A DNA stretch of 23,611 nt, taken from positions 1 to 23,611 of IMG/VR virus record IMGVR_UViG_3300009537_000182; one strand, written 5' to 3'. The notes beneath the pieces are model-generated. The model was not told the DNA's origin, searched no databases, and was given only the letters and a program-made list of their open reading frames with translations. Below, one piece after another: positions 420 through 17,944 of the stretch. The position numbers and the translations under genes are program-made. The DNA is from a virus. Position 1 is the stretch's first letter, and each line of letters starts with the position of its first letter.

Positions 420-1001
420 TCAGTTTTTCACAATTTCATTTCCTGTTATTTGGGTGTTTCCGGATACCTTAACATTATTAGCTATCCAAGCATCCTCATA
501 TACAGTAGCATTTCCAAATACCTTAGCATTTCCAAATACCTTAGCCTTACCAAATACCTTAGCCTTACCATATACCTCAGCCATCATGTATATCTTAGTA
601 TCACCATATACCCAAGCATTCTCATATACAGTAGCATTACCAAATATCTTAGCATTTCCATATACCTTAGCATTCCCAGCTACCCAAGCATTCTCATATA
701 CTTTAACATTACCATATACCATAGCATCACCATATACCATAGCATTACCATATACCATAGCATCACCATATACCATAGCATTACCATATACCTTAGCATT
801 ATCATATACCATGGCATTACCATATACCTTAGCCGTCCCAAATACCTTAGCATCTTTAGTTATCCAACAGTTACCCTTCTGGGATAAATTGACTTCTGAT
901 TCAACCATTCCACCAAGGTCACCTTGTTTTACTTTACCAAAGTTTCTCAGGGCTTTGATTCTGAATAAATTTCCTATGGGGATCAGTTCGTATTTTTTCA
1001 T
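420..1001 (-). CDS. Hexapeptide-repeat beta-helix protein, YdcK-like
   Basis: 193 residues. Residues 1 to about 50 form a conserved head (including RIKALRNFG and GDLGGMVESE) of the kind that precedes the repeats in YdcK-like phage and prophage proteins. From about residue 52 to 190 there are some 23 units of six residues with the pattern [KMTW]V[YF]GNA, the pattern of a left-handed beta-helix. No acyltransferase-type catalytic residue is evident, and function is unknown; such proteins may be structural or binding proteins. The start ATG follows an A-rich stretch (AAAAAGAT) rather than a clear Shine-Dalgarno site; the same leader precedes the gene starting at 18381. It lies 17 bases after the HAD phosphatase gene and probably shares its transcript. 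A long plus-strand frame over the same DNA is a by-product of the repeats. Confidence 0.85.
   Translation of the reverse strand: MKKYELIPIGNLFRIKALRNFGKVKQGDLGGMVESEVNLSQKGNCWITKDAKVFGTAKVYGNAMVYDNAKVYGNAMVYGDAMVYGNAMVYGDAMVYGNVKVYENAWVAGNAKVYGNAKIFGNATVYENAWVYGDTKIYMMAEVYGKAKVFGKAKVFGNAKVFGNATVYEDAWIANNVKVSGNTQITGNEIVKN
438..848 (-). repeat. Tandem 18-base repeats encoding hexapeptide units
   Basis: About 23 imperfect units of 18 bases, each encoding one [KM]VYGNA-like hexapeptide. Some neighbouring units are almost identical at the DNA level (for example around 715-800), which suggests recent unit duplication. Confidence 0.85.
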
Positions 1002-1578: not shown

Positions 1579-3858
1579 TTATATAATTTCACAGCTACCA
1601 CCTGCGCAAGCAACTTCACCTTGTAGATTAGTTTCATCATCTAATTCAATGACTCTACTTAAATCAATATTATGTAAATGGCTTACCATTTCATTATACT
1701 GTTCTTCTGTTATATCTTCAAATGGAGCTTGGATATAAGTTCCGCCATCGTATGGAAGAACTGATAAACCATTATATGATTTTCTATTCTTCCACATCCA
1801 CACTCCCACTTCATCCCATTCATCATTCTTAATAGAAATGGTGGCAGAAATATTATGCTGATTGCTACCATTCCTATGACCACCTTTTATCCAATCATTG
1901 TGAATTAGTTTTACCCTCTTTAATAAATCTAATGCTGACTCAGTTCTTAGTATAGAACCATCAGGTGCTTTTTGTGGGATATTAATTACAGCTGTATCAT
2001 GTGGTCTGAAATATTCATCTTCCACCAGCTCTGGGTGATGAATACTCAAATAAGTATAAATTCCTTCATTCTTACCTACACGCAATCTCCTAATATAATA
2101 ATCATTATGCCAAGCGTGGATACCTGAAGATGTTCCTAATACACAACTGGCGGTTCCAGATGGTTTGACCGCCGTAATCCTCGCGGCTTTATTAATCCCA
2201 ATAAGATCTGCTATTCTTGCATTTTCTACTTTTGCTATCTCTGCAGATTCTTTTAAATCATAGTTAAATATTACACCAGATCCAATACCAGTCATTGATA
2301 CTCCGAGCAAAGCATCTTTCTTTGTAGTCTTCTCCCATACTGGCCTTAAGTAATGAAAATCAGTATAGCCTGCTTGAAGTGTTCCTATGAATGATGCTAC
2401 CCTTACTCTTTCATTTAAATCTTCCTGGGATTCGATATCAGAAACATTTACTTCTGTTAAATTGCAAAATTGGTTTGGGCGTAAGCTGATTTCACAGTTA
2501 TGTGCTAATATTCCATTAGCAAAGAAATTATGATTGTTTTCTACCTCAATATCATATACATCGTAAGTTTCTGGCTCTAAATGAAGTATTACCTTGCCAT
2601 CCGTTAAATCATCCATCAATAAAATATCATCTGGTATTAAATCTTTACATTCAATCCACCCCCTATTAATAGTATAAAATTTATGGTCTGGTGTGCAGAT
2701 TACTTTATTATAATTTTCATTTGAATGAACTATCATCCCAGTAACAATGGCGCCTTTCTGAGTTAAACATCCTGTTATAACATTGTCGTATTGCAATGTA
2801 CCAGTTTGTTCATTATATGTTTTAACTTTACATGAGCCACCATTATTAATGGATTCAACTATATCTTTAATAGCCAACGAACCATTATCAGTTTCTATTA
2901 AAGTATCTCCTATAAAACAACATGGATTAGTTCCCCAATCTTTATCATTAGTAAAGAATATCCCAGGCTCACCCGCACCTGATGCTTTGATTCTATCCCA
3001 TAAATTCATAAAGAAATCTTCTGTAATTCTATGCCTCACCAAAGATGCCGAATTGTTTGATCTACCCCGTTGAGGATTTAATTCCCACCAATTACCAGAT
3101 TTACATGATATCATTTCCATATCATCCGCTGAGAATAAACTAATCAATGCTGATCTTCTTATTCCTCCAGCTAATACTGCATCAGCTATGTGACAAACAA
3201 TATCATGCACTTCTAATGGAGATAATTGTGAACCTTCCTCTTTAGATTCCAATATACCTTTTATCTTAACAACACATTCAATTAAAGGTTGTGGGCCAGG
3301 AGCTTTACCACCAGACGTAATTAATTTAGCTCCTTTTGGTCTTATATCTCTAAAATCAAATGCGATGGTTGGTCCACCAAAGAAATAACTTTTCATTAAT
3401 AATTTTATAGCATCTGACCACCCTTCAACACTATCACCCACCAAATATCGTTTAGTTCTATTAGGATTAGGTTTAGTAATATCTGGTAATAATTCGATAT
3501 GATGCTTTTGAACACTAAGTCCAACCCCATTACCACATAGTAAACAAAACATGATTTCCTGGAAAGCTCTCCAATCATCTACTGGGAGATATGCGCAGTT
3601 ATATAATCTGTTAGGAGTAATCTCAATAGGTTTCCCAGCGAACTGTAAACTACGCATTGATGGTAATACTTTCTTTTCTAATACTAATTTATAGGCTTCT
3701 AAAATTTCTTCCTCTAATTGAGGATACTTTTTAATATGCATCTGCATATTCCTATCAACCAATTCCTCCCAAGTTTCTCTTCTTTGTTCTTTTGGTAAGT
3801 ATTTTGCATACTTCATAAAAACTGTAATATCGGATAAAATTTTATTGTTTATGTCCAT
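1579..3858 (-). CDS. nrdJ: Class II ribonucleotide reductase with internal intein
   Basis: 759 residues as translated, about 618 after removal of the intein (residues 314-454). It reduces ribonucleotides to deoxyribonucleotides for phage DNA synthesis. N311-P-C313 precedes the intein and C455-E456-I-S-L follows it, so splicing restores NPCCEISL, which matches the active-site NPCxE motif holding the thiyl-radical cysteine and catalytic glutamate. C88 (LYNCAY) and C465 match the redox pair, and the tail has CAGGSC (751-756) for re-reduction. I call class II (B12-dependent, monomeric NrdJ type) from the resemblance to the Lactobacillus enzyme and because no small radical-generating subunit is seen in the window; that gene could lie elsewhere. 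The mature protein is shorter than the 739-residue Lactobacillus enzyme. Confidence 0.85.
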   Translation of the reverse strand: MDINNKILSDITVFMKYAKYLPKEQRRETWEELVDRNMQMHIKKYPQLEEEILEAYKLVLEKKVLPSMRSLQFAGKPIEITPNRLYNCAYLPVDDWRAFQEIMFCLLCGNGVGLSVQKHHIELLPDITKPNPNRTKRYLVGDSVEGWSDAIKLLMKSYFFGGPTIAFDFRDIRPKGAKLITSGGKAPGPQPLIECVVKIKGILESKEEGSQLSPLEVHDIVCHIADAVLAGGIRRSALISLFSADDMEMISCKSGNWWELNPQRGRSNNSASLVRHRITEDFFMNLWDRIKASGAGEPGIFFTNDKDWGTNPCCFIGDTLIETDNGSLAIKDIVESINNGGSCKVKTYNEQTGTLQYDNVITGCLTQKGAIVTGMIVHSNENYNKVICTPDHKFYTINRGWIECKDLIPDDILLMDDLTDGKVILHLEPETYDVYDIEVENNHNFFANGILAHNCEISLRPNQFCNLTEVNVSDIESQEDLNERVRVASFIGTLQAGYTDFHYLRPVWEKTTKKDALLGVSMTGIGSGVIFNYDLKESAEIAKVENARIADLIGINKAARITAVKPSGTASCVLGTSSGIHAWHNDYYIRRLRVGKNEGIYTYLSIHHPELVEDEYFRPHDTAVINIPQKAPDGSILRTESALDLLKRVKLIHNDWIKGGHRNGSNQHNISATISIKNDEWDEVGVWMWKNRKSYNGLSVLPYDGGTYIQAPFEDITEEQYNEMVSHLHNIDLSRVIELDDETNLQGEVACAGGSCEII
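2497..2919 (-). other. Contiguous mini-intein in the reductase
   Basis: 141 residues. Block A is C314-FIGDTLIETDNG, block B ends in CTPDH (about residues 388-392), block F is YDVYDIEV and block G is NGILAHN ending in N454, with C455 as the +1 nucleophile. There is no room for a homing endonuclease domain. It occupies the same NPC|x site as the split intein NrdJ-1 known from metagenomic fractured genes, but here it is unbroken. Confidence 0.9.
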
Positions 3859-5273: not shown

Positions 5274-6308
5274 CTATCTACTACTATAATTATCTAACAC
5301 TCCAAAAGAATTTCTAATCCAGGTTTGAATATATGGAATTTGTAAGTTATCTTCTATCGTTAATTTGATAAACTCAACCTGGTTTAATCTATCAATATTT
5401 CTTTCGTAATTATTAATTGCTGAAATTTTAGAATGCCCTGATATATCTACATCATTTAATTGCATAAGAATATGGTTTAACTTAATAGTTTCCTGCTCTT
5501 TAGTAATTTGCTGGGAAACCTTATCGTCTTTATCTTTGCAATGTTCAAATAACATATCCAATGATATTGTTTCTGTTGAATCAAATAATACCGGTAGGAG
5601 CTTTTGCAATGTTTTATCTCCTATTCCATTAAGACCTTTTATATTATCAGAGCTATCTCCCAACAAAGATTTATAAAGAATATAGTTATCTGGTTCTAAA
5701 TTGTATTCTTCTTTAAAGGATGATTTATCATATAATTTCTTTTTAGTTGGACTCCATACAGTTATCCTATCATTTATTAATTGTAGATAATCTTTATCGG
5801 AAGATGCTATCACCACTTCTTGCTTACAAACCTGGGTAGCTAAATATGCTATTACATCATCCGCTTCAACATTATCTAATGTAATAATAGTAACTGGTAG
5901 CGTTTCCAAATAAGCAATCAACCTCATTAATTGCCACTTCATTGATTGTTGCTCATCAACAATATTTTCAAACCCAATTGCTCTTCTGGGTTTGGAAGAT
6001 GGTTTCTTATTATCCTTATATCCAGAATATAATTTTCTTCTTCGTTGTGACCCACCCTTACCATCAAATACTATCACACAGCGGGTTGGTTTATGAATAT
6101 TTATTATAGATGTTAAACTGGTTAAAAATCCATAAAGTCCCCCAACATGTACCCCATCCGAATTTAATGATGGATTGGCACTAAATGACCGAATGAAATG
6201 ATTTAACCCATCAACGAATAAAACTTTAGACTCCGCTGTTAATGGCTCTTGAGTTTTATTATGAAGTTCTTCCTGAAGCTTGTTAAATAAATCTAAATAA
6301 TTAGTCAT
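5274..6308 (-). CDS. 5'-3' exonuclease, RNase H/FEN family
   Basis: 344 residues, close to T4 RNase H. Metal-binding acids of the FEN/5' nuclease fold are in order: D33 (LFVDGLNH), D82 (IVFDGKGG), E148/D150/D151 (VEADDV), D171/D173 (SSDKDYLQL) and D218/D221 (LLGDSSDN). These are followed by a helix-3-turn-helix signature, GLNGIGDKT (225-233). The basic stretch from about 89 to 109 fits the arch that clamps 5' flaps. It would remove RNA primers and 5' flaps from lagging-strand fragments. Its ATG lies inside the end of the third recombinase piece (8-base overlap), so the two are probably translationally coupled. Confidence 0.9.
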   Translation of the reverse strand: MTNYLDLFNKLQEELHNKTQEPLTAESKVLFVDGLNHFIRSFSANPSLNSDGVHVGGLYGFLTSLTSIINIHKPTRCVIVFDGKGGSQRRRKLYSGYKDNKKPSSKPRRAIGFENIVDEQQSMKWQLMRLIAYLETLPVTIITLDNVEADDVIAYLATQVCKQEVVIASSDKDYLQLINDRITVWSPTKKKLYDKSSFKEEYNLEPDNYILYKSLLGDSSDNIKGLNGIGDKTLQKLLPVLFDSTETISLDMLFEHCKDKDDKVSQQITKEQETIKLNHILMQLNDVDISGHSKISAINNYERNIDRLNQVEFIKLTIEDNLQIPYIQTWIRNSFGVLDNYSSR

Positions 6309-7134
6309 GTATATCTAATGATTCGTCAGAAAATTCTTTATCTTCTTCTGGTATTTCGTTTGAATTATATTTCATAATCATTTTATCACATATCGCATTA
6401 TACATGGATTCTTTTAGATCTGGATTCTTTTCAAACATATCTGGTAGTTGTTTTAATTGGAATTTAGTTATCTCTCCAGTTTCTTGGTCGGTATAAGTAT
6501 ACCAGGCACCGCCTACAGTTACAATATCATAATCTTTTAATTTGTTTATCCAACCATTTAAATCATCAATGCCAGAATCGAAATAGATATCAAATTCAGT
6601 TTTTCTAAATGGTGGTCCAACCCTATTCTTAATTACCTTTGCTTCGGTCTTAACACCAATAATAGCATCCACCCCATGGATCTTTGCTTTAATTTGTCCT
6701 ATTGATTTAAGTCTAAGTCTTACTGAAGAGTGGAAGCCTAGGGCTTTACCTCCAGATGTGGTGTTGTGATTTAATCTTCCGTTAGCTAAATAGGTATGTT
6801 CATCTTCTACCTCACAGTCTACCACCTGAATCGGTTCTTCAACTAAATGAAAGTCGGGATGTTCTTTGGCGAGTATTTCTATTCCATTCTCAACAAATTT
6901 GTGTTCCGCGGTAACTTTAATAATACTGTCTGTATAATGATTCTCTGATGTGGGTTTCACCACAAAAGAGGTCATAGGTTTATAAACCTCATTATTATTT
7001 TTATCTAATGTTAATATTTCTATTCCCATATACTCAATATCATACACATCCGGTGTAGTAACATCATTATTTAACAAGAACCTTTCTGAAAATTCTAGAA
7101 AGGTCAATTCTTCGTAAATATAATCATCTGTCAT
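6301..7134 (-). CDS. recA: Recombinase RecA/UvsX, piece 3 (C-intein plus C-terminal extein)
   Basis: 277 residues. Residues 1-124 are a C-intein: block B SIIKVTAEHKF (70-80), block F around VVDCEVEDEHTYL, and block G NGRLNHN ending at N124. From T125 the sequence is the C-terminal core of RecA: TTSGGKALGFHSSVRLRL is the DNA-binding L2 region and following strand, and the protein ends in an acidic tail like many RecA proteins. It makes sense only if joined in trans to piece 2, whose N-intein ends at 8254. Its start overlaps the stop of the endonuclease gene by four bases (ATGA), so translation is probably coupled, and it overlaps the 5' nuclease gene downstream. Confidence 0.9.
   Translation of the reverse strand: MTDDYIYEELTFLEFSERFLLNNDVTTPDVYDIEYMGIEILTLDKNNNEVYKPMTSFVVKPTSENHYTDSIIKVTAEHKFVENGIEILAKEHPDFHLVEEPIQVVDCEVEDEHTYLANGRLNHNTTSGGKALGFHSSVRLRLKSIGQIKAKIHGVDAIIGVKTEAKVIKNRVGPPFRKTEFDIYFDSGIDDLNGWINKLKDYDIVTVGGAWYTYTDQETGEITKFQLKQLPDMFEKNPDLKESMYNAICDKMIMKYNSNEIPEEDKEFSDESLDIHD
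6763..7134 (-). other. Split intein 2, C-intein (124 residues)
   Basis: Contains blocks B, F and G and the terminal asparagine, so it carries all splicing elements except block A. The +1 residue is threonine. Its partner is the 15-residue N-intein at 8254-8298. Confidence 0.88.
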
Positions 7135-8183
7135 AATAGTTCTTTTATTTGTTGTTTACAATGTTCTAAATTATTATTAATATCGGTTTCATAAATATAA
7201 TGATAATTAATTGAATTATCTAGAAAAACTCTTTTTTTATTTTCGTCATATTCCCATACCATTTTAGCGGTTCTATTTGAATGAGTGGTATCAGTATGGG
7301 CGAATAAAGTTGGATTTGCATGCCAAAAATCTCCATAACATTCAATAACCAAATTAGACTCAGGAATATAAAAATCTGGTATATATGTATTATCGGTAAA
7401 CATAAATACATCCTCATATCTCCATACTACTCCCAGCTCATTTAGTGTGATAGCGATTAGATATTCAATGCTATTCATGTTATGCCCATTACATTCATAT
7501 TTTTTATTTTTACTAGATGTTATCATTCTATAAAATTTGGCCTTATCATATAATTTTGCATCTTGCCACATTTTTTTTGCTGCAGCACTAATTTTATCTT
7601 TTCTAGATTGTTGTCTGTTTCTAGTAAGAACCATACTTCTGTATTCTGGGTCGTTCTTATATCGTTCACTTTGCTTCTTCCCACCCTTTTTATGACCTGC
7701 CACTACCTTTGGATTGTTTTTATAAGCAGCGACCCATTCTTCGTCTTTCCATCTTTCTGAATTCATTTTACCTATTATAGGCGCCCATTTTGTAGATCTG
7801 CGTTTTAGTTTCTGTCGGGTTTCAATACCAGCGGGTGAATCGTAATGTGTTCTAAGACTACATGATAACTTCTGTCGCATAGCTATAATATTATTATTCA
7901 TCAACTCTTTAACCTCTTCAGTTAAATTCAAATTATCTATACACCATTTTATCGCTGATTCTTTGGGGAATAATTTCTTTCTTTCTTTATAAACCAATGT
8001 GCCTATATCGGTTCCTAAATAATAGATAAAATATTCGACGACAGAAGAGCTAAGCGGCATTTTACCATTACTCATTCTTGGATATGGTTTTATCTTGTAT
8101 TCGACTTTTAACTTAAACGAAATACGCGGAATGATATCATCCCATTTAATTTCCACATTAAAGTATTCTTTAATTACATTCAT
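7131..8183 (-). CDS. Free-standing Vsr/EDxHD-like homing endonuclease
   Basis: About 350 residues. I chose the ATG at 8183, not the one at 8216, because it has a strong Shine-Dalgarno site (AGGAGGG, 8190-8196) six bases ahead. The middle is rich in K, R and W with repeated short motifs (KMNSERW, KKMWQDA), as in DNA-binding NUMOD-like modules. The C-terminal third has a Vsr-type nuclease core: NSIEYLI (glutamate), YIPDFYIP (aspartate), NLVIECYGDFWHANP (E, D and W-H), matching the pattern of the EDxHD homing endonucleases first described beside split inteins. The gene sits exactly between the two halves of split intein 2. It probably cuts intein-free recombinase alleles and drives spread of the element (inference). 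Confidence 0.83.
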   Translation of the reverse strand: MNVIKEYFNVEIKWDDIIPRISFKLKVEYKIKPYPRMSNGKMPLSSSVVEYFIYYLGTDIGTLVYKERKKLFPKESAIKWCIDNLNLTEEVKELMNNNIIAMRQKLSCSLRTHYDSPAGIETRQKLKRRSTKWAPIIGKMNSERWKDEEWVAAYKNNPKVVAGHKKGGKKQSERYKNDPEYRSMVLTRNRQQSRKDKISAAAKKMWQDAKLYDKAKFYRMITSSKNKKYECNGHNMNSIEYLIAITLNELGVVWRYEDVFMFTDNTYIPDFYIPESNLVIECYGDFWHANPTLFAHTDTTHSNRTAKMVWEYDENKKRVFLDNSINYHYIYETDINNNLEHCKQQIKELL

Positions 8184-8189
8184 TTTTGT

Positions 8190-8196
8190 CCCTCCT
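8190..8196 (-). promoter_or_regulatory. Ribosome binding site that fixes the endonuclease start
   Basis: AGGAGGG six bases ahead of the ATG at 8183. The upstream in-frame ATG at 8216 has no such site. This is one of the strongest Shine-Dalgarno sites in the window, unlike the recombinase pieces around it. Confidence 0.8.
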
Positions 8197-8250
8197 ATTG
8201 TTATTATATTATTCATTGATTATACTAATATATATGGTGGGACTAAAAAA

Positions 8251-9102
8251 TCAAGGTTTATATCTAATCTTTATCTTAGTAGTAATAGGGTCTACACATG
8301 ATGCATCTCCGAAACTTACTCCAAGCTTAACTCTCAACTGATTCACATAGATTAACAATATTCTTTCCCTACCAATAAGATTAGTTAACTTTCTCATTGC
8401 TTTAGAAATTACAATTGCTTTGGTGGTAGACCAACCATCTTTCGTATAATCAGCTTCCATTTCAACCTTAGTTGATGCTGCAGCAACGGAGTCAGTAATA
8501 ATAGTAACTAATTTATTCTTTTCAGTCTTTCTAATAATTTCAATTATATTTTCAGTTACTTCAAAACAATCCTCGATACAATCGACTTGGATTAACATGA
8601 ACTTTTCTCTACTGGTATCTACCCCAATCGCTCTGAAGAAATCGGTGCTTACAGCATTCTCTGTATCAATATACACTACCATTCCGCCCTTCTTCTGAGT
8701 TTCTGCGCATATGTGGGCAGCCATTAAAGATTTTCCTGAATTATGATTTAGCATATCATTCCCAAAATAACATTGATCAGGATGATCCACGGTGATATCT
8801 ACTATTTTATGTAGCCCTATATAATTAATATTACTAACAAGGCTATAACTTCCATCAGAGCATAATATGCTATGGGTATTAGGTTGTATATTTCTTGTTT
8901 CTAACCAACCAGAATCAGTGAAAAATTTATGAGCGGCAGAAACTTTAATGGTGTTACCATTAGCTAATATAACTTCATAAGTATCTAAAATTCCTTTATT
9001 AATATAATTAGTGATAGGAACGTATTCACCATTCAATGACTTTACTTTAACTGTTTTACCAGCTCTTAATAAATCTTTTACTTCTTTAATTTGTATTTTC
9101 AT
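8251..9102 (-). CDS. recA: Recombinase RecA/UvsX, piece 2 (C-intein 1, core, N-intein 2)
   Basis: 283 residues in three parts. Residues 1-121 are a C-intein with block B NTIKVSAAHKFF (50-61), block F IVDITVDHPDQ, and block G NDMLNHN ending at N121. Residues 122-268 are the RecA core: S122-GKS completes the Walker A loop, MVVYIDTE follows, VTIITDSVAA is the Walker B strand, and LLIYVNQLRVKLGVSFGDAS leads to the L2 loop. Residues 269-283 (CVDPITTKIKIRYKP) are a second N-intein that stops at 8251. No clear Shine-Dalgarno site precedes the ATG; instead a small open frame ends in TGA overlapping it (ATGA), suggesting translational coupling. Without both trans-splicing events this piece is not a functional recombinase. 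Confidence 0.9.
   Translation of the reverse strand: MKIQIKEVKDLLRAGKTVKVKSLNGEYVPITNYINKGILDTYEVILANGNTIKVSAAHKFFTDSGWLETRNIQPNTHSILCSDGSYSLVSNINYIGLHKIVDITVDHPDQCYFGNDMLNHNSGKSLMAAHICAETQKKGGMVVYIDTENAVSTDFFRAIGVDTSREKFMLIQVDCIEDCFEVTENIIEIIRKTEKNKLVTIITDSVAAASTKVEMEADYTKDGWSTTKAIVISKAMRKLTNLIGRERILLIYVNQLRVKLGVSFGDASCVDPITTKIKIRYKP
8254..8298 (-). other. Split intein 2, N-intein (15 residues)
   Basis: CVDPITTKIKIRYKP directly follows the extein FGDAS and is ended by a stop codon. The cysteine is the block A nucleophile. The joined extein would read FGDAS-TTSGGK, which matches RecA/UvsX. Confidence 0.85.
8740..9102 (-). other. Split intein 1, C-intein (121 residues)
   Basis: Blocks B, F and G ending LNHN, with serine as the +1 residue. 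It pairs with the 13-residue N-intein at 9208-9246. Blocks are complete except for block A. Confidence 0.88.
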
Positions 9103-9221
9103 TTTTTATTTTTTTGTAGTCTTTGCAATTCATTCTCTGAGATCTGTATCTTACCTTCTATAATTTGGTTATTAATATATTCTAAAAATATAGGGATGAG
9201 AAATTTATTCAATGATAACAT
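9099..9221 (-). CDS. Small open frame in the intein 1 gap (40 aa, uncertain)
   Basis: Starts MLSLNKFLIPIFLEYINN and ends in QRLQKNKK. It begins inside the N-intein 1 coding sequence in another frame and ends in a TGA that overlaps the ATG of piece 2. GGAGG lies 12 bases before its ATG, rather far. The composition (hydrophobic, then charged helix) looks like real coding sequence. Two readings are possible: a coupling peptide that carries ribosomes to piece 2, or the displaced middle of an ancestral contiguous intein left after a frameshift. Function is not assigned. Confidence 0.4.
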   Translation of the reverse strand: MLSLNKFLIPIFLEYINNQIIEGKIQISENELQRLQKNKK

Positions 9222-9474
9222 CAATAATAGTATCCTCCGTAACACAGGCTTCCCACCCCTGCAGCTCCACAATTCTGCCAACGGGTAGCCCGCCATTCGG
9301 TTTATTAGAAATTGCTAAATCTAATAAAGTCGATCCAGTGGAGATCCATTCCGTTACATCAACATTAGCATCATCCGTTCCATCCAAAAAGAATGCAATT
9401 TTATTATCTTTAAATTTTTTATTCAATGAGTCAGCCAATAATGCTGATAGTGTGTCTTTATCTTTATTTGCCAT
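9205..9474 (-). CDS. recA: Recombinase RecA/UvsX, piece 1 (N-terminal extein plus N-intein)
   Basis: 89 residues. Residues 1-76 are the N-terminus of a phage RecA/UvsX: WISTGSTLLDLAIS and NGGLPVGRIVELQGWEA lead straight into the Walker A loop, where the protein is cut. Residues 77-89 (CVTEDTIIDVIIE) are a block A N-intein followed by TAA. Splicing to piece 2 would give GWEASGKS, a complete GxxxxGK[ST] loop. The mature recombinase would be 76 + 147 + 153, about 376 residues, normal for the family; it would coat ssDNA and catalyse strand exchange in recombination-dependent replication and repair. No Shine-Dalgarno site precedes the ATG; the leader carries two 15-base repeats and lies just below the terminator of the ssb gene. 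Confidence 0.9.
   Translation of the reverse strand: MANKDKDTLSALLADSLNKKFKDNKIAFFLDGTDDANVDVTEWISTGSTLLDLAISNKPNGGLPVGRIVELQGWEACVTEDTIIDVIIE
9208..9246 (-). other. Split intein 1, N-intein (13 residues)
   Basis: CVTEDTIIDVIIE with the block A cysteine, ended by TAA. This is shorter than the usual split N-intein of about 90-105 residues and in the size class of the ultra-short natural N-inteins such as VidaL (16 residues, recalled from the literature). Confidence 0.85.
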
Positions 9475-9479
9475 TATAT

Positions 9480-9509
9480 GTTATAGTTTAAAAAGTTATA
9501 GTTTAAAAA
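9480..9509. repeat. Tandem 15-base repeat upstream of recombinase piece 1
   Basis: gttatagtttaaaaa occurs twice in a row (9480-9494 and 9495-9509), immediately ahead of the start codon of piece 1. It fills the place where a ribosome binding site or promoter would be; role unknown. Confidence 0.85.
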
Positions 9510-9550
9510 AAGGGGGGATGGCTATAAGGTTATGAAGCTTGCCATCCCCA
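9504..9550 (-). terminator. Intrinsic terminator after the gp32-like gene
   Basis: GGGGATGGC (9514-9522) pairs perfectly with GCCATCCCC (9541-9549) and is followed on the minus strand by a run of seven T (9504-9511). It separates the ssb transcript from recombinase piece 1. Confidence 0.9.
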
Positions 9551-9571
9551 CCTAAATGAAAAAAAGAAAAA

Positions 9572-10387
9572 TTATTTACTGAACAGATCGTCAAACGCTG
9601 CGGCTACATCACTAGGCGCACTTTTTGGTGCTGCAGGTTTTGATGCAGCTGGGGCTGGCTTATCGAACACATCTACTGGGGCTTTGCTATTGGTAGCATC
9701 TGCTACACCAGTGTCGGGGGTCGGATTTAACCATTCTTTAAGAACGCCTGTTAGCTCTTCGTATGAAGGTTCTACAAATAATTCTGTTAAATTAATTTGC
9801 TTGCTCAGAGCATCCTCCACAATTTTAGGATCATTACTAATTGGTGATTGATTAGGTTTAATTCTGATGGAAGTTTTTGGATATCTTTCTCCGGCGTCTT
9901 TATTTGGTAACGTGTACTCGATAGTAAGATCTCTTCCTGATATCGGGTCGGTTATATCACCATAATCCTCGTCCAACATTATTCCTAATATTTCTTCGTA
10001 AATAGTTTTACCAAATCCCCAAAATTTAACACCTTCTGCTTCTTTGCCTCTAACTAATACTGGTACATACACCCGCATACCTGGTTCTGATAATTTCTTA
10101 CCGATTTTCCAATCTTCTTTAGAACCAGTCTTTCTGAGTTTTTGGCCAAATTCTGCTATAGGATCTGGGCGGCCGTATGTTAATGGTGACAGATAAGGCC
10201 TGTTTCCGATATCATAATGAAACTGCATTTCAGAAAATACATTGTCTTTATTAAATTGATATGGAATAATTCTTACTACAGTTTTACCAGGTTCTAGCGA
10301 AATTGTATTATCTTTAATCTTGCTGTTACCCGCTGTAGGTTTTGTTTGCAACGTTTGCAATTTGTTTCTTAATTCGTTAATGTTCAT
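9572..10387 (-). CDS. Single-stranded DNA-binding protein, gp32-like
   Basis: 271 residues, near the length of T4 gp32. The basic N-terminus (MNINELRNKL) fits the cooperativity domain, the middle (about 25-200) fits an OB-fold core rich in aromatics (VKFWGFGKTIYEEILG), and the protein ends in a proline/alanine linker (about 235-260) and the acidic tail AAAFDDLFSK, which in gp32-type proteins contacts polymerase, helicase loader and other partners. It would coat ssDNA at the fork. It has its own promoter (10506-10535), a leader of about 110 bases and its own terminator, as expected for an abundant, separately controlled protein. The assignment rests on overall layout and tail, not on one diagnostic motif. 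Confidence 0.82.
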   Translation of the reverse strand: MNINELRNKLQTLQTKPTAGNSKIKDNTISLEPGKTVVRIIPYQFNKDNVFSEMQFHYDIGNRPYLSPLTYGRPDPIAEFGQKLRKTGSKEDWKIGKKLSEPGMRVYVPVLVRGKEAEGVKFWGFGKTIYEEILGIMLDEDYGDITDPISGRDLTIEYTLPNKDAGERYPKTSIRIKPNQSPISNDPKIVEDALSKQINLTELFVEPSYEELTGVLKEWLNPTPDTGVADATNSKAPVDVFDKPAPAASKPAAPKSAPSDVAAAFDDLFSK

Positions 10388-14971: not shown

Positions 14972-14981
14972 ATTTATTTTG

Positions 14982-15054
14982 TGGAAAGACCTGGGATCGA
15001 ACCAGATTCTCATGCTCTTCAGGCATGCGCGATAACCATACTCGCTCTCTTTCC
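14982..15054 (-). tRNA. tRNA-Phe(GAA)
   Basis: Acceptor GGAAAGA/TCTTTCC, anticodon stem CATGC/GCATG with loop CTGAAGA, T-loop TTCGATC. Complete cloverleaf. The last tRNA of the array in transcription order. The 3' end is encoded as A73-CA, not CCA. Confidence 0.93.
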
Positions 15055-15058
15055 ATTG

Positions 15059-15132
15059 TGCAGGTAGTCAGGATCGAACTGACTCTTTTCCGGTTTGGAA
15101 GACCAGCGCACCACCATTTATGCGTTACCTGC
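15059..15132 (-). tRNA. tRNA-Gly(TCC)
   Basis: Acceptor GCAGGTA/TACCTGC, anticodon loop CTTCCAA on stem CTGGT/ACCGG, T-loop TTCGATC. Encoded end A73-CA. Four bases from tRNA-Phe. Confidence 0.93.
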
Positions 15133-15135
15133 AAG

Positions 15136-15208
15136 TTATCCGGCCAGGGGTCGAACCTGGAGTCTTTTGGCTCAAAACCAAACGTGTTGCCAATTACACC
15201 ACCGGACA
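15136..15208 (-). tRNA. tRNA-Gln(TTG)
   Basis: Acceptor TGTCCGG/CCGGATA with one G-U pair, anticodon loop TTTTGAG on stem TTTGG/CCAAA, D-loop with AATTGG, T-loop TTCGACC. Encoded end A73-CT. Confidence 0.92.
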
Positions 15209-15213
15209 ATTAG

Positions 15214-15285
15214 CACACCCCCAAAGAATCGAACTCTGTCCATCCAAGGTTTTGGAGACCCGGTGCATACCTTATGCTGAGATGC
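15214..15285 (-). tRNA. tRNA-Trp(CCA), short D-loop
   Basis: Acceptor GCATCTC/GGGGTGT has three G-U pairs. The D arm has only a five-base loop (GCAT-AAGGT-ATGC), so the anticodon CCA (loop CTCCAAA) lies three positions earlier than normal. The first anticodon-stem pair is mismatched. T-loop TTCGATT is normal. Discriminator G, as in bacterial tRNA-Trp. Confidence 0.78.
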
Positions 15286-15291
15286 ATTTTG

Positions 15292-15363
15292 AGCTCAGGG
15301 AGATGATCGAAATCTCAACTCGTGTTTACAAGACACATATTATGCCACTTTAACTACCCAAGC
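15292..15363 (-). tRNA. tRNA-Thr(TGT)
   Basis: Acceptor GCTTGGG/CCTGAGC, D stem GTTA/TAAT, anticodon loop CTTGTAA on stem TGTGT/ACACG, T-arm GAGAT-TTCGATC-ATCTC. Discriminator T, then CA. Confidence 0.92.
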
Positions 15364-15369
15364 ATTTTG

Positions 15370-15443
15370 TACTTCCAGATGGACTTGAACCACCAACCTT
15401 CACGATATAAGCGTGCTGCTCTAACCAATTGAGCTATAGAAGC
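15370..15443 (-). tRNA. tRNA-Ile(TAT)
   Basis: Acceptor GCTTCTA/TGGAAGT, D stem GCTC/GAGC, anticodon loop CTTATAT, T-loop TTCAAGT. It would read AUA directly with an unmodified-type anticodon, useful in an AT-rich genome. Encoded end A73-CA. Confidence 0.92.
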
Positions 15444-15449
15444 ATTATG

Positions 15450-15522
15450 TATCACCAGAGAGACTCGAACTCCCAACTTCTTATATGTAAAACAAGCACT
15501 CTTCCAATTGAGTTATGGTGAT
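15450..15522 (-). tRNA. tRNA-Val(TAC)
   Basis: Acceptor ATCACCA/TGGTGAT, D stem ACTC/GAGT, anticodon loop TTTACAT on stem CTTGT/ATAAG, T-loop TTCGAGT. Encoded end A73-CA. Confidence 0.92.
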
Positions 15523-15527
15523 AAGTG

Positions 15528-15605
15528 TCTGCAAGGTAGGAATCGAACCTACATTTTCAACCAATTACCTTACTCCTGTATATCAGACAGGGTGGATACT
15601 CGCAG
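15528..15605 (-). tRNA. Aberrant tRNA-like gene with Ile(GAT) anticodon arm
   Basis: Acceptor CTGCGAG/CTTGCAG and T-arm GTAGG-TTCGATT-CCTAC are normal. A perfect anticodon arm CCTGT-CTGATAT-ACAGG (anticodon GAT) follows only six bases after the acceptor-D junction, so the usual D arm is missing. About 22 bases including a D-loop-like AATTGG lie between the anticodon arm and the T-arm. Either a D-armless tRNA with a large variable region, a rearranged gene, or a decaying one. Encoded end A73-CA like its neighbours. Confidence 0.5.
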
Positions 15606-15610
15606 AATTG

Positions 15611-15686
15611 TGGACCGAGTGGGAATCGAACCCACCACATGGTGCTTGCAAAGCACTATCGCCTAAGCCTTGGAACATGCCAGCCC
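15611..15686 (-). tRNA. tRNA-Ala(TGC)
   Basis: Acceptor GGGCTGG/TCGGTCC with wobble pairs, anticodon loop TTTGCAA on GTGC/GCAC, T-arm GTGGG-TTCGATT-CCCAC. The D stem is weak. It lacks the G3-U70 in E. coli position order only in orientation: position 3 is G and 70 is T, so the alanine identity pair is present. Encoded end A73-CA. Confidence 0.88.
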
Positions 15687-15697
15687 ATTTCATTTTG

Positions 15698-15780
15698 CGG
15701 AAGAAGTAGGAATCGAACCTACACATCATTACGATGAACGGTTTAGCAAACCGTGGCAGTACCATTATGCTTACTCTTCC
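15698..15780 (-). tRNA. tRNA-Ser(GCT)
   Basis: Acceptor GGAAGAG/TTCTTCC, anticodon loop TTGCTAA on ACGGT/ACCGT, long variable arm CATC-GTAA-TGATG as expected for serine, discriminator G. Encoded end G73-CA. Confidence 0.92.
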
Positions 15781-15781
15781 T

Positions 15782-15860
15782 TGGCGGTCCTAGAGGGGAT
15801 CGAACCCTCATTTTACTAACGTGACAGGCTAGTTCCCAGGCCAATTGGGCTCATAGGACC
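15782..15860 (-). tRNA. tRNA-Asp(GTC), with encoded CCA
   Basis: Acceptor GGTCCTA/TAGGACC, anticodon loop CTGTCAC on CTAGC/GTTAG, T-arm GAGGG-TTCGATC-CCCTC, discriminator G. The only tRNA in the array whose gene encodes the full CCA end (15782-15784). Confidence 0.92.
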
Positions 15861-15997
15861 AAGTAGCTCCTGTTTATTTTAAATGTCGGAGCCTCAAACA
15901 TTCTCGAGGTAATTTTCACTAGGTAACTACCCACCCAACAATTAATCATTTCGAACTAATTAACTATTTCGTGCTAAACCGATCTTGACCGGCTCAG
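15861..15997 (-). other. Unexplained 137-base segment in the tRNA array with several hairpins
   Basis: No cloverleaf could be completed. Visible on the minus strand: CCGGT-CAAG-ATCGG right after tRNA-Tyr, a seven-pair A/T stem around GTTCGAAA (T-loop-like), then GCTCC/GGAGC and CCTC/GAGG hairpins bounded by GTAG and CTAC. It might hold a decayed tRNA or a small structured RNA; no open frame of note. Confidence 0.35.
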
Positions 15998-16070
15998 TTG
16001 GCTACACTTGACTCGAACAAGATTGAGGTTCGGTTTTACAGACCGTCCTGCCTACCCCGGGCAATAGCCA
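15998..16070 (-). tRNA. tRNA-Tyr(GTA), short variable loop
   Basis: Acceptor TGGCTAT/GTAGCCA, anticodon loop CTGTAAA on CGGT/ACCG, T-loop TTCGAGT. The variable region is only about seven bases, whereas bacterial tRNA-Tyr usually has a long variable arm. Discriminator A, then CT. Confidence 0.85.
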
Positions 16071-16076
16071 ATTTTG

Positions 16077-16147
16077 AGATCACGAGTGGAATCGAACCAC
16101 TTTTGAGTATTTTGCAGACACTCGCCTCACCATTCGGCCACGTGATC
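16077..16147 (-). tRNA. tRNA-Cys(GCA)
   Basis: Perfect acceptor GATCACG/CGTGATC, anticodon loop CTGCAAA, D-loop with AATGG, T-loop TTCGATT. Discriminator U73, the main cysteine identity base. Encoded end T73-CA. Confidence 0.93.
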
Positions 16148-16153
16148 ATTCTG

Positions 16154-16224
16154 TAGCCCATACCAGTACTGACCTGGTCTTTCTAGGTTGAAAACCTAGC
16201 GTCCTACCAATAGACGAATGGGCC
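16154..16224 (-). tRNA. tRNA-Glu(TTC), unusual T-loop
   Basis: Acceptor GGCCCAT/ATGGGCT, D arm GTC-TATTGGTAG-GAC, anticodon loop TTTTCAA on perfect CTAGG/CCTAG. The T-stem ACCAG/CTGGT is perfect but the loop reads GTCAGTA, so the normally invariant T54 and A58 are both G. Encoded end A73-CA. Confidence 0.85.
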
Positions 16225-16233
16225 AATTGAATC

Positions 16234-16320
16234 TCTGGGGAAGGCGTCATCCTGCTACATTTCGTTAACGCAACCCTTCGCTTAATGTACACTCCACGAA
16301 GTCTAGCATTCTTCCCCAGA
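16234..16320 (-). ncRNA. Structured 87-base segment closed by a perfect 10-bp helix
   Basis: TCTGGGGAAG (16311-16320) pairs perfectly with CTTCCCCAGA (16234-16243). Inside, TACATT pairs with AATGTA and TGC with GCA, with small hairpins (AGCG/CGTT) between. It lies between tRNA-Met and tRNA-Glu and has the size of a tRNA, but there is no T-loop consensus or anticodon arm. It recalls the stable non-tRNA RNAs of the T4 tRNA cluster only by position. Function unknown. Confidence 0.55.
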
Positions 16321-16337
16321 CATTCCCTAATTCATTG

Positions 16338-16412
16338 TAGCGGGAGTGAGATTCGAACTCACGTCGTTCAGCTTATGAGACTGAGCTGGATCCATCTCCA
16401 GTCCACCCCGCT
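16338..16412 (-). tRNA. tRNA-Met or Ile2 (CAT)
   Basis: Acceptor AGCGGGG/TCCCGCT, anticodon loop CTCATAA on TCAGT/GCTGA, T-arm GTGAG-TTCGAAT-CTCAC. The 1-72 pair is A-T, not the initiator mismatch, so it is an elongator Met or a lysidine-type Ile tRNA; sequence alone does not settle which. Encoded end A73-CA. Confidence 0.9.
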
Positions 16413-16464
16413 ATATATTTTCATTAACCCCACTAAATCTCCAATTATATTTCTATAATCTTGT

Positions 16465-16498
16465 AGGCGTGGATTATTGTGAGTTATCACTGACGCCT
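16465..16498 (-). other. Hairpin between tRNA genes
   Basis: AGGCGT/ACGCCT (six pairs, 16465-16470 with 16493-16498) encloses GTGA/TCAC with a four-base loop. The rest of the 16413-16515 gap is A/T-rich with no feature I can name. Confidence 0.55.
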
Positions 16499-16515
16499 CG
16501 TTAATTATTTAGAGC

Positions 16516-16651
16516 AACCCAAGCCTGGATTCAAACCAGGATCTTTCGATATTAAACCATTAATTCGTCAATCATATGGTATTTTATTAAAGGTGGCCAC
16601 CTAGAATAAAATGAATAATAAAGACTGTGTTATCATTTACACTACTCGAGC
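16516..16651 (-). ncRNA. tRNA-like gene B with about 80-base internal insertion
   Basis: The 5' end GCTCGAG pairs (four wobbles) with CTTGGGT at the 3' end; TA and a D arm GTGT-AAATGATA-ACAC follow, and a perfect T-arm CCTGG-TTTGAAT-CCAGG precedes the 3' acceptor. Between them GTCTTT pairs with AAAGAT like an extended anticodon stem. Its interior holds a 32-base interrupted palindrome (16581-16612; core AGGTGGCCACCT) and an ACCAT/ATGGT hairpin. No anticodon can be named. Discriminator T is followed by G, unlike the other tRNAs. May be an intron-bearing, decayed or repurposed tRNA. Confidence 0.4.
16581..16612. repeat. 32-base interrupted palindrome
   Basis: attttatt (16581-16588) and aataaaat (16605-16612) flank the 12-base perfect palindrome aggtggccacct (16591-16602) with a two-base mismatch on each side. 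It lies inside tRNA-like gene B. Confidence 0.85.
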
Positions 16652-16659
16652 ATATTTTG

Positions 16660-16733
16660 TGCTCCTGATTGGGGTCGAACCAATACTGTACAGATTTTAA
16701 GTCTGTTGCGTCTACCTGTTGCGCCACAGGAGC
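16660..16733 (-). tRNA. tRNA with Leu(TAA) anticodon, class I
   Basis: Perfect acceptor GCTCCTG/CAGGAGC, perfect anticodon stem ACAGA/TCTGT with loop CTTAAAA, T-loop TTCGACC, encoded end A73-CA. The variable region is only five bases, whereas bacterial tRNA-Leu has a long variable arm. Confidence 0.88.
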
Positions 16734-16774
16734 AAAATATACTATTCAATATGTCAAAGAACTACTGTATTAAG

Positions 16775-16914
16775 AGATTGAGGCAGGACTCGAACCCGCA
16801 TCCACCATTTAAGAAGTGTTTCGCTTTGCAAAGCAATTCTCCTCCAACTCTGGCGTTTTATAAGAAACGTGTACTTAGTTTCTATCATAGTGTCTACCAT
16901 TTCACCACTCAATC
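16775..16914 (-). ncRNA. tRNA-like gene A, 140 bases with large insertion
   Basis: Perfect acceptor GATTGAG/CTCAATC, D arm GTG-AAATGGTAGA-CAC as in leucine tRNAs, and T-arm GCGGG-TTCGAGT-CCTGC. Between D and T arms are about 85 bases: a hairpin GAAAC/GTTTC extended by TATGA/TTATA with loop TAAGTACAC, then a long arm closed by CGCCA/TGGTG containing GAGAA/TTCTT and TTGCTT/AAGCGA. No standard seven-base anticodon loop is found. First gene below promoter E. It may be a tRNA-Leu with an insertion or a tRNA-derived RNA. Confidence 0.5.
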
Positions 16915-16949
16915 TTATATCAATGAACTATCTTTAATTTCTATACCAT

Positions 16950-16979
16950 AAATATAATGATAATTTTTCAGACTACCAA
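16950..16979 (-). promoter_or_regulatory. Promoter of the TTTGGTAGTCT family, copy E
   Basis: TTGGTA (16974-16979), 17 bases, TATATT (16951-16956) on the minus strand, inside the tRNA array. It starts a transcript at about 16944 covering tRNA-like gene A down to tRNA-Phe. Confidence 0.8.
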
Positions 16980-17002
16980 ATATTTATTTAACTTTTTTTT
17001 TG

Positions 17003-17095
17003 TGCACCCGGTAGGATTCGAACCTACGATGGAGGACTTGGTTACCTCTCCTGATTAAAAGTCAGGTACTGTCGGCCAGCTAAGCGAACGGGTGC
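17003..17095 (-). tRNA. tRNA with Lys(TTT) anticodon and long variable arm
   Basis: Perfect acceptor GCACCCG/CGGGTGC, perfect anticodon stem CCTGA/TCAGG with the Lys-like loop CTTTTAA, T-arm GTAGG-TTCGAAT-CCTAC. The variable region is 22 bases with a GAGG/CCTC stem, a class II form never expected for lysine. Encoded end A73-CA. Confidence 0.87.
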
Positions 17096-17100
17096 ATATG

Positions 17101-17174
17101 TACACCTGGTAGGATTCGAACCTACACTTAACTGTTTAGAAGACAGTTGCCTTATCCTTTTAGGCTACAGGTGC
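17101..17174 (-). tRNA. tRNA-Arg(TCT)
   Basis: Acceptor GCACCTG/CAGGTGT, D arm GCCT..AGGC, anticodon loop CTTCTAA on ACTGT/ACAGT, T-arm GTAGG-TTCGAAT-CCTAC. Reads AGA/AGG. Encoded end A73-CA. Confidence 0.93.
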
Positions 17175-17219
17175 TCTTGCGTCTTTCTTCGTTTTCGTTT
17201 CATTTTCATTTCGTTATAG

Positions 17220-17291
17220 AGGATCAGGAGAATTTCGAAATCTCGACCTGAGAGTTAACAGCTCCCCGCTCTACCCCTGAGCTACCGATCC
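17220..17291 (-). tRNA. tRNA-Asn(GTT)
   Basis: Acceptor GGATCGG/CTGATCC, D stem GCTC/GAGC, anticodon loop CTGTTAA on GGGAG/CTCTC, T-loop TTCGAAA with one T-stem mismatch. Discriminator T, then CT. Confidence 0.9.
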
Positions 17292-17296
17292 TAGTG

Positions 17297-17380
17297 CGGA
17301 AGAATGAGGTATCGATCCCCCGTCAAATTTGACGTATCCTGGTTTTCAAGACCAGTTGCTTGGCCACAAGCAATTCTTCC
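17297..17380 (-). tRNA. tRNA-Ser(TGA)
   Basis: Perfect acceptor GGAAGAA/TTCTTCC, anticodon loop CTTGAAA on CTGGT/ACCAG, long variable arm with CGTCAA/TTGACG, discriminator G. T-loop reads ATCGATA, so T54 is A. First gene below promoter F. Encoded end G73-CA. Confidence 0.9.
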
Positions 17381-17391
17381 ATTTAATTTTT

Positions 17392-17421
17392 AAATATAAT
17401 ATATTTTTTTGACACTACCAA
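17392..17421 (-). promoter_or_regulatory. Promoter of the TTTGGTAGTCT family, copy F
   Basis: TTGGTA (17416-17421), 17 bases, TATATT (17393-17398) on the minus strand. The most divergent copy (TTTGGTAGTGT). It lies directly below a terminator and starts the Ser-Asn-Arg-Lys tRNA transcript. Confidence 0.75.
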
Positions 17422-17433
17422 ATTTTTTACAAT

Positions 17434-17462
17434 AAAAAAACCCGAACTTTGTAGGTTCGGGT
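17434..17462 (-). terminator. Intrinsic terminator between tRNA groups
   Basis: ACCCGAAC (17440-17447 on plus) pairs with GTTCGGGT (17455-17462) around a seven-base loop; on the minus strand it is followed by seven T. It ends the transcript of the Leu-Pro-His-Arg group. Confidence 0.9.
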
Positions 17463-17493
17463 GGAATTTTTATTACAATATTAATATATTACA

Positions 17494-17598
17494 TTATTCC
17501 ACCCATATCTTACTATCTGTATTAATAAACGAACAGCCAGTTTCAGCTATCCAATAATTGGATAAACTGGTCTTCGTTTGTATATATCTTTGTTTCAT
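17494..17598 (-). CDS. Possible small protein (34 aa)
   Basis: Open frame starting MKQRYIQTKT and ending SKIWVE, between tRNA-Arg and a terminator. No Shine-Dalgarno site is visible. The frame overlaps a strong RNA hairpin, so it may be coincidental. No family recognised. Confidence 0.3.
   Translation of the reverse strand: MKQRYIQTKTSLSNYWIAETGCSFINTDSKIWVE
17527..17579 (-). ncRNA. 53-base stem-loop with 20 base pairs
   Basis: Three stacked perfect stems: AAACGAA/TTCGTTT (7 pairs), CCAGTTT/AAACTGG (7 pairs) and ATCCAA/TTGGAT (6 pairs), with a small internal loop, one five-base bulge and a three-base apical loop. It sits between tRNA-Arg(ACG) and the terminator. Possible stable small RNA or processing signal; the strand follows the surrounding transcript. 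Confidence 0.55.
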
Positions 17599-17631
17599 CT
17601 TATATAATTATATACTTTTTAAATTTTATAG

Positions 17632-17705
17632 TACCTCCAGTAGGACTCGAACCCACATCTAACTGGTTCGTAGCCAGTCACATTATCCAATTATGCTACA
17701 GAGGC
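17632..17705 (-). tRNA. tRNA-Arg(ACG)
   Basis: Acceptor GCCTCTG/TGGAGGT with wobble pairs, anticodon loop CTACGAA on ACTGG/CCAGT, T-arm GTGGG-TTCGAGT-CCTAC. A34 would need conversion to inosine by host TadA to read CGN codons. Encoded end A73-CT. Confidence 0.92.
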
Positions 17706-17716
17706 ATTAATATTTG

Positions 17717-17788
17717 GGTGTAAGGATGGTATCGAACCATCTTCTCGGAGTTCACAGCCCCGCGCTTCACCTTAAAGCTTCAAACACC
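17717..17788 (-). tRNA. tRNA-His(GTG)
   Basis: Anticodon loop CTGTGAA on CGGGG/CTCCG, T-arm GATGG-TTCGATA-CCATC. The extra G-1 pairs with C73, the histidine identity feature. The acceptor stem has two adjacent T-T mismatches (5-68, 6-67). Encoded end C73-CA. Confidence 0.9.
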
Positions 17789-17793
17789 ATTTG

Positions 17794-17868
17794 TCAGAGT
17801 GGCTGGATTCGAACCAGCGAGCGCCGACTTCCAAGGTCGGTCCATATAGCCATCTGTGGAACACTCTG
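17794..17868 (-). tRNA. tRNA-Pro(TGG)
   Basis: Perfect acceptor CAGAGTG/CACTCTG, perfect anticodon stem CCGAC/GTCGG with loop CTTGGAA, T-arm GCTGG-TTCGAAT-CCAGC. Encoded end A73-CA. Confidence 0.93.
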
Positions 17869-17871
17869 TTG

Positions 17872-17944
17872 TACACCTACCAGGATTCGAACCTGGAAGT
17901 CTGGGGTCTAAATCCAGTGCGGTTACCAATTACGCCATAGGTGC
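17872..17944 (-). tRNA. tRNA with Leu(TAG) anticodon, class I
   Basis: Acceptor GCACCTA/TAGGTGT, anticodon loop TTTAGAC on CTGG/CCAG, T-arm CCAGG-TTCGAAT-CCTGG. The variable region is only four bases, again unlike bacterial tRNA-Leu. First tRNA of the array. Encoded end A73-CA. Confidence 0.88.

Follow-up and report, generated by a model that had tools for sequence, protein, structure and literature searches.

Dassa et al. reportedly described in 2009 a class of 'fractured genes', covering eight types of enzyme, in which a split intein is accompanied by a free-standing endonuclease gene placed in the break. Atypically split inteins, with a very short N-terminal fragment (IntN) and a long C-terminal one (IntC), are also a known kind; VidaL (IntN of 16 amino acids, aa) and PolB16 OarG (IntN of 15 aa; PMC10189870) are both split at the position known as S1, and natural atypical IntN range from 15 to 37 aa, with 15 as the record (PMC13014065, 2026). 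In addition, tandem protein trans-splicing of three segments by two split inteins, with a middle segment bearing parts of both, has been engineered (PMC12707363), and the Mtu RecA mini-intein (PDB 3ifj) represents an intein of HINT fold within a RecA-family recombinase. Here we analyze the RecA/UvsX-family recombinase gene of the IMG/VR virus record IMGVR_UViG_3300009537_000182, a linear fragment of 23,611 bases taken as the complete record and referred to as the window. We propose that this gene exists in three pieces joined by two split inteins and that its breaks arose by the entry of endonuclease genes, a reading to which we assign a probability of about 0.9.

As in fractured genes, a conserved phage enzyme of DNA metabolism is here interrupted by a split intein, and a free-standing Vsr-related endonuclease gene occupies break 2; unlike in fractured genes, the gene is broken twice, both inteins are predicted to be split at S1 with IntN of 13 and 15 aa, break 1 holds just a scar, and the endonucleases found at site 1 in relatives belong to a different nuclease group. 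The S1 position, the very short IntN and the long IntC are shared with VidaL and PolB16 OarG, from which the locus differs in its host gene, a recombinase, in the 13-aa IntN of intein 1 and in the existence of contiguous and split forms at one insertion site. The layout of three segments, two split inteins and a middle piece with both intein parts is that of the engineered system, except that the one in the window is natural, whereas the Mtu intein, although similar in host family and fold, is contiguous, single and located in a bacterial RecA. A split UvsX is undescribed in the literature examined on inteins and UvsX, a comparison outside which the 2009 survey falls. As far as that literature shows, two breaks in one recombinase, a natural IntN of 13 residues and a complete matrix of states together with endonuclease scars are new.

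Three minus-strand frames (9474-9205, 9102-8251 and 7134-6301) carry consecutive parts of the recombinase. The first-pass annotation had described them as exteins of 76, 147 and 153 residues, with N-inteins ending in stop codons and C-inteins running from ATG to HN, and this was confirmed by the frames, the RecA profile and colinear relatives; the joined product has 376 residues (Table 1). Pieces 1, 2 and 3 match three consecutive segments of Pfam RecA, the last two above the cut-off (E of 1e-26 and 2e-14) and piece 1 with E of 3e-5. Once joined, the exteins present a RecA core with Walker A and the L2 region and match phrog_97 ('UvsX-like recombinase') and PF00154; among solved structures, bacterial RecA is matched with E about 1e-50 and phage UvsX with about 1e-15 at best, T4 UvsX being a weaker match than RecA. 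Break 1 falls in the Walker A loop (GWEA-SGKS) and break 2 in the DNA-binding L2 region (FGDAS-TTSGG). Since about 80 intact homologues (46-57% identity) are colinear across both junctions, nearly all of them gap-free there, the splice junctions are well defined, and the exact insertion points are given by empty versus occupied sites in the close relatives L064, L097, L102 and L085 (71-85% DNA identity).

Table 1. Features of the interrupted recombinase gene, in the order of translation (window positions; nt, nucleotides).
Feature	Positions	Strand	Description
Extein 1	9247..9474	-	recombinase residues 1-76, C-terminal end GWEA within Walker A; based on alignment with intact relatives
N-intein 1	9205..9246	-	CVTEDTIIDVIIE and TAA stop, 13 aa; based on codon-position differences in 14 loci
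Break-1 spacer	9099..9204	-	102 nt; frame +1 (about 9185-9099) encodes FLEYINNQIIEGKIQISENELQRLQKNKK and a stop
C-intein 1	8740..9102	-	121 aa, MKIQIKEV...FGNDMLNHN; Intein_splicing E=2.7e-6
Extein 2	8299..8739	-	recombinase residues 77-223, SGKS...FGDAS
N-intein 2	8251..8298	-	CVDPITTKIKIRYKP and TGA stop, 15 aa
Shine-Dalgarno sequence of the endonuclease gene	8191..8196	-	AGGAGG, strong
Putative Vsr-like homing endonuclease gene	7131..8183	-	350 aa from an ATG with Shine-Dalgarno sequence, inside break 2
C-intein 2	6763..7134	-	124 aa, MTDDYIYEEL...LANGRLNHN
Extein 3	6301..6762	-	recombinase residues 224-376, TTSGG... up to the stop

Both inteins display class 1 motifs: Cys1, VSAAH, IVDITV, NHN and Ser at +1 in intein 1, and Cys1, VTAEH, VVDCEV, NHN and Thr at +1 in intein 2, so that the HN ends of the two C-inteins, which start with ATG, are followed by the first residue of SGKS and of TTSGG, respectively. 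Cys1, the block B His, the block F Asp, the terminal HN and Ser/Thr+1 are conserved in 18 sequences of intein 1 and 21 of intein 2. IntN and IntC lie on separate polypeptides, with stops and new ATGs conserved among loci, and 12 of the 14 site-1 split loci have a 13-residue IntN. Mean differences at codon positions 1/2/3 were 0.19/0.05/0.54 for N-intein 1 (14 site-1 loci) and 0.17/0.07/0.49 for N-intein 2 (17 site-2 loci), while in the ten codons past the usual stop, some of which are still N-intein in loci whose N-intein exceeds that of the window in length, they were 0.58/0.59/0.60 and 0.62/0.63/0.66. The bias being flat after the stop, constraint ends at the N-intein stop codon. The fragmented gene might alternatively be a decaying pseudogene, its recombinase killed by the insertions and its pieces left to drift, as the clearly decayed endonuclease of break 1 would allow; but the three exteins and two inteins are open and constrained, the codon bias stops at the N-intein stops, the same architecture is found in distant phages and the larger relatives have no substitute RecA, all of which makes decay very improbable. 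No further RecA copy was found within the 23.6-kb record, nor any second RecA-family gene in the larger relatives (records of up to 369 kb) besides the interrupted one; therefore, assembly of the recombinase probably matters to the phage.

The ribonucleotide reductase gene of the window (1579-3858, minus strand) also carries an intein, a contiguous mini-intein (CFIGDTLIETD...GILAHN, followed by CEIS; Pfam Intein_splicing, 47 bits), which brings the inteins in the fragment to at least three.

Because a sequence search of the PDB with intein 2 matched no solved intein, this intein was examined by structure. AlphaFold2 models of the contiguous inteins of two relatives, L084 for intein 1 and L089 for intein 2, reached pLDDT values of 97.0 and 96.4 and showed HINT folds. 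In Foldseek searches the intein 1 model matched the atypically split VidaL (TM-score 0.88, root mean square deviation 1.8 Å), which had the top TM-score and the second-best E-value among the matches listed, and other inteins too; with the intein 2 model all matches at E<=0.001 were inteins. On these models the split of intein 1, at residue 13, falls in the turn between strands 7-11 and 15-19, and that of intein 2, at residue 15, in the turn between strands 8-13 and 16-21. Both inteins would then be atypically (S1) split, after beta-strand 2, at the turn of the first two long strands. IntN 2 lies at the lower bound of the published range, and IntN 1, two residues under it, therefore extends that range rather than falling within it.

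IMG/VR was scanned with the spliced protein, piece 2, both C-inteins and their alignments, and each site was classed as empty, contiguous (cis) or split. All nine combinations of these states at sites 1 and 2 occur: cis+cis (L190), cis+split (L084, L185), split+cis (L179), cis+empty (L186), split+empty (L086, L168, L169, L172 and others), empty+cis (L089, L221, L233), empty+split and empty+empty (many each), and split+split (the window, L085 and L087). Intein 1 is thus contiguous in L084, L185, L186 and L190, and intein 2 in L089, L179, L190, L221 and L233. The rarity of a double break, already suggested from the window alone, holds: double splits were found in three contigs only, single breaks in many. 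On a tree of 53 exteins (quick method, unrooted counts, with the long branches L189, L180 and L179 uncertain) there were 13 state changes at site 1 and 14 at site 2, and this patchy distribution at site 2 is the sole, indirect, observation that bears on the putative homing. The double-split state required three changes, likewise when only well-supported branches were counted, and was therefore gained repeatedly or lost repeatedly; the direction of changes is unreadable because the count is unrooted.

The split break points recur in 14 loci at site 1 and 17 at site 2, from many metagenomes, and this rules out that the stop codons are assembly errors, the objection that the first-pass annotation had raised against itself. 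The broader explanation by sequencing or assembly error, by read-through or frameshifting, or by an RNA intron joining the coding parts is next to impossible in our judgement, given identical break points in many independent metagenomes, and read-through would have to cross a break-1 spacer containing several in-frame stops and, in break 2, a gene of 1.1 kb. At break 1 read-through or frameshift is excluded by the multiple in-frame stops in 102 nt, and an RNA intron at the locus was rejected since no Rfam match at E<=1 was obtained in 6200-9700. Scanned for promoter and terminator consensus sequences, the same region gave promoters not in excess over shuffles.

Other interruptions of the same recombinase were seen in relatives. 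A third intein site precedes site 2 by a few residues, between KLG and TSFGD; it is contiguous in L211 (2701-3876) and split in L222 (2737-3453 and 4434-5876), with a 16-aa IntN, CVNPETTNIIIRKKIT followed by a stop, and its own endonuclease-like open reading frame, L222 additionally carrying a contiguous intein 2. Past the split intein 2, extein 3 is apparently interrupted again in L185 (4800-6500), and also in L225 and L230, by a group I intron with an endonuclease reading frame; the matches to Rfam are partial in L185 (E of 8e-7 and 4e-5, below gathering), and L225 and L230 show the motif GATATAGTCC.

The two breaks of the window are at different stages: an endonuclease gene is intact in break 2, while break 1 contains no gene, only a scar. 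The scar frame aligns with the C-terminal end of the endonucleases of site 1 at 15.4 bits when the window is left out of the profile, a score that one in 2000 Markov shuffles equalled or exceeded. It ends in a stop codon that overlaps the C-intein 1 start (ATGA), in precisely the way seen with an intact endonuclease gene. Site-1 endonucleases (L087, L169, L172, L173, L179 and L180) form a group distinct from those of site 2, and the two with Pfam matches resemble PD-(D/E)XK nucleases and phage endonuclease I. Other breaks that lack an endonuclease (L184, L174, L168, L183 and L085) retain the same 3' end to a greater or lesser length, that of L189 retaining both endonuclease ends. Because the scar matches an endonuclease C-terminus at the IntC start, break 1 may be regarded as a split intein that has persisted after the loss of its endonuclease, and its spacer as the probable remnant of a deleted homing-endonuclease gene. 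The retained 3' end may persist because the piece that follows is translated from a start that it supplies; it is not indispensable, since L086 remains split although its spacer is 9 nt long and free of endonuclease remnants. Endonuclease loss seems to have occurred at site 2 as well, in L092 and L094, where splits with a 28-aa IntN have spacers of just 65 and 106 nt.

At break 2, the core PDF...EC-GD-WHA-P of the endonuclease is invariant in 11 homologues that likewise occupy site 2 and resembles the Vsr family, Pfam Vsr matching the window protein with E=0.0018, below the cut-off; no profile reaches threshold. The gene terminates within ATGA, where its stop and the start codon of piece 3 overlap. 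Most genes nearby have A-rich leaders poor in Shine-Dalgarno sequences, unlike its strong AGGAGG, which looks as if it were an imported expression signal of its own. The first-pass annotation had seen the two breaks correctly; what it missed were the S1 position, the N-parts of 13 and 15 residues, the differing stages of the breaks, the scar and the recurrence in other phages.

These features could suggest an addition to the proposed origin, namely that the split is kept for a benefit to the phage or the endonuclease, with translation of the C-terminal pieces coupled to the endonuclease gene and the overlapping stop and start tying a recombinase required for homing to the endonuclease itself. 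The T4 td intron requires UvsX/RecA for its homing (PMC2988022), and the endonucleases would accordingly reside in the gene for their own homing helper, the recombinase. Coupling would agree with the overlap of 4-31 nt between endonuclease stop and IntC start at both sites in most loci, with the scars that retain the 3' end beside the IntC start, and with a strong Shine-Dalgarno sequence on the endonuclease only. However, L086 remains split without a remnant, so that coupling is not essential, and we hold this addition to be doubtful.

The anatomy, the coding constraint, the scar, the series of states found in nature and the fold modelled for contiguous homologues are shown by this analysis; splicing activity, pairing specificity, endonuclease activity and the direction of the steps are inferred, as follows. 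Two clearly distinct class 1 inteins would have invaded two conserved sites critical for recombinase function; endonuclease genes would then have entered between the intein fragments, their stops overlapping the new IntC start codons. At break 1 a PD-(D/E)XK-type endonuclease would later have disappeared, leaving only its 3' end next to the start codon of IntC, and the Vsr-like one of break 2 would persist. The operon-like stretch would yield three polypeptides, in which each short IntN strand docks into its own IntC and completes its sheet, and class 1 chemistry (Cys1 thioester, branch at Ser+1 or Thr+1, Asn cyclisation) would take place twice to give a continuous recombinase of 376 residues.

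Anatomy and relatives support the earlier view of one recombinase gene broken twice, in a fractured-gene arrangement, that would need two trans-splicing events. The idea that these events are ordered found no support: because the middle piece can react first at either end, the two reactions would require no order, and the sequence indicates none. Selective IntN-IntC pairing is plausible, as the two N-fragments are strongly different and the inteins share only about 21% identity in a profile alignment. That extein 1 might be joined to extein 3 by mistake would nevertheless be a real hazard, because an atypical IntC is known to cross-splice with foreign small IntN, embedded ones included (PMC3443213), and in a large orthogonality test atypically split inteins with a short fragment took part in most of the cross-talk (PMC7090010).

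Several points weigh against the proposed reading. Trans-splicing itself is deduced from sequence; both C-inteins stay below the cut-off of Pfam Intein_splicing, the match of C-intein 1 listed in Table 1 included, and intein 2 found no solved intein by sequence. The structural models are of contiguous inteins of relatives and not of the split pairs of the window; the scar match is short, 27 residues, and one of the shuffles scored as high or higher; and the record being a 23.6-kb fragment, another recombinase could lie elsewhere in the genome. The pieces could also act as a non-covalent complex without splicing, with the intein parts as docking tags or relics, given that IntN-IntC binding alone could hold them together and that T4-like phages have functional split enzymes without splicing, such as NrdA of phage Aeh1 and gene 43 of phage 25 (PMC2988022). 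We consider this unlikely: docking alone needs none of Cys1, the block B His, the block F Asp, HN and Ser/Thr+1, all of which are conserved, and break 1 severs the Walker A loop, which would leave a chain end with a 121-residue C-intein at the ATP site.

Regarding the wider context of the locus, tblastn against 50,697 phage records gave no match for C-intein 2 and one weak terminase match for C-intein 1, and a genome scan with the intein 1 alignment gave one weak match, in a proteobacterial metagenome-assembled genome. The recombinase gene is flanked by genes for a single-stranded-DNA-binding protein and a 5'-3' exonuclease. At 43-52%, the closest sequenced relatives of recombinase and helicase belong to Microcystis phage Mel-JY01, joined by Flavobacterium phages in the case of the helicase; the sole DNA similarity to sequenced phages was a 58-nt match of the endonuclease in a Campylobacter phage. 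The window also contains an array of 21 tRNA genes (14981-17944, minus strand), which between them serve most amino acids, and, at 420-1001 (minus strand), a gene for a protein with many short tandem VYGNAKV-like repeats, probably a repeat-built beta-helix.

The origin of permanent intein splits has been argued mostly from end states. The locus probably represents a natural three-polypeptide enzyme assembled by two S1-split inteins that are selective for their own partners, one of them having the shortest IntN described in nature (13 aa). Its lineage would then show all the steps, beginning with the empty site and passing through the contiguous intein and the intein broken by an endonuclease to an endonuclease-free permanent split that keeps only the 3' end of the endonuclease, beside the start codon of the C-piece. 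Both inteins are candidate tools with short IntN, of 13 and 15 aa, that are easy to synthesise. That the two occur side by side in one pathway implies that misjoining has been countered by natural selection, a point of importance since the small IntN of S1-split inteins can cross-react (PMC3443213, PMC7090010). With one gene, two sites, nine combinations and graded endonuclease decay, the order of events becomes directly testable, and as the relatives preserve the empty, intact-intein, broken-intein and decayed-endonuclease stages, the origin of a broken gene can be read step by step.

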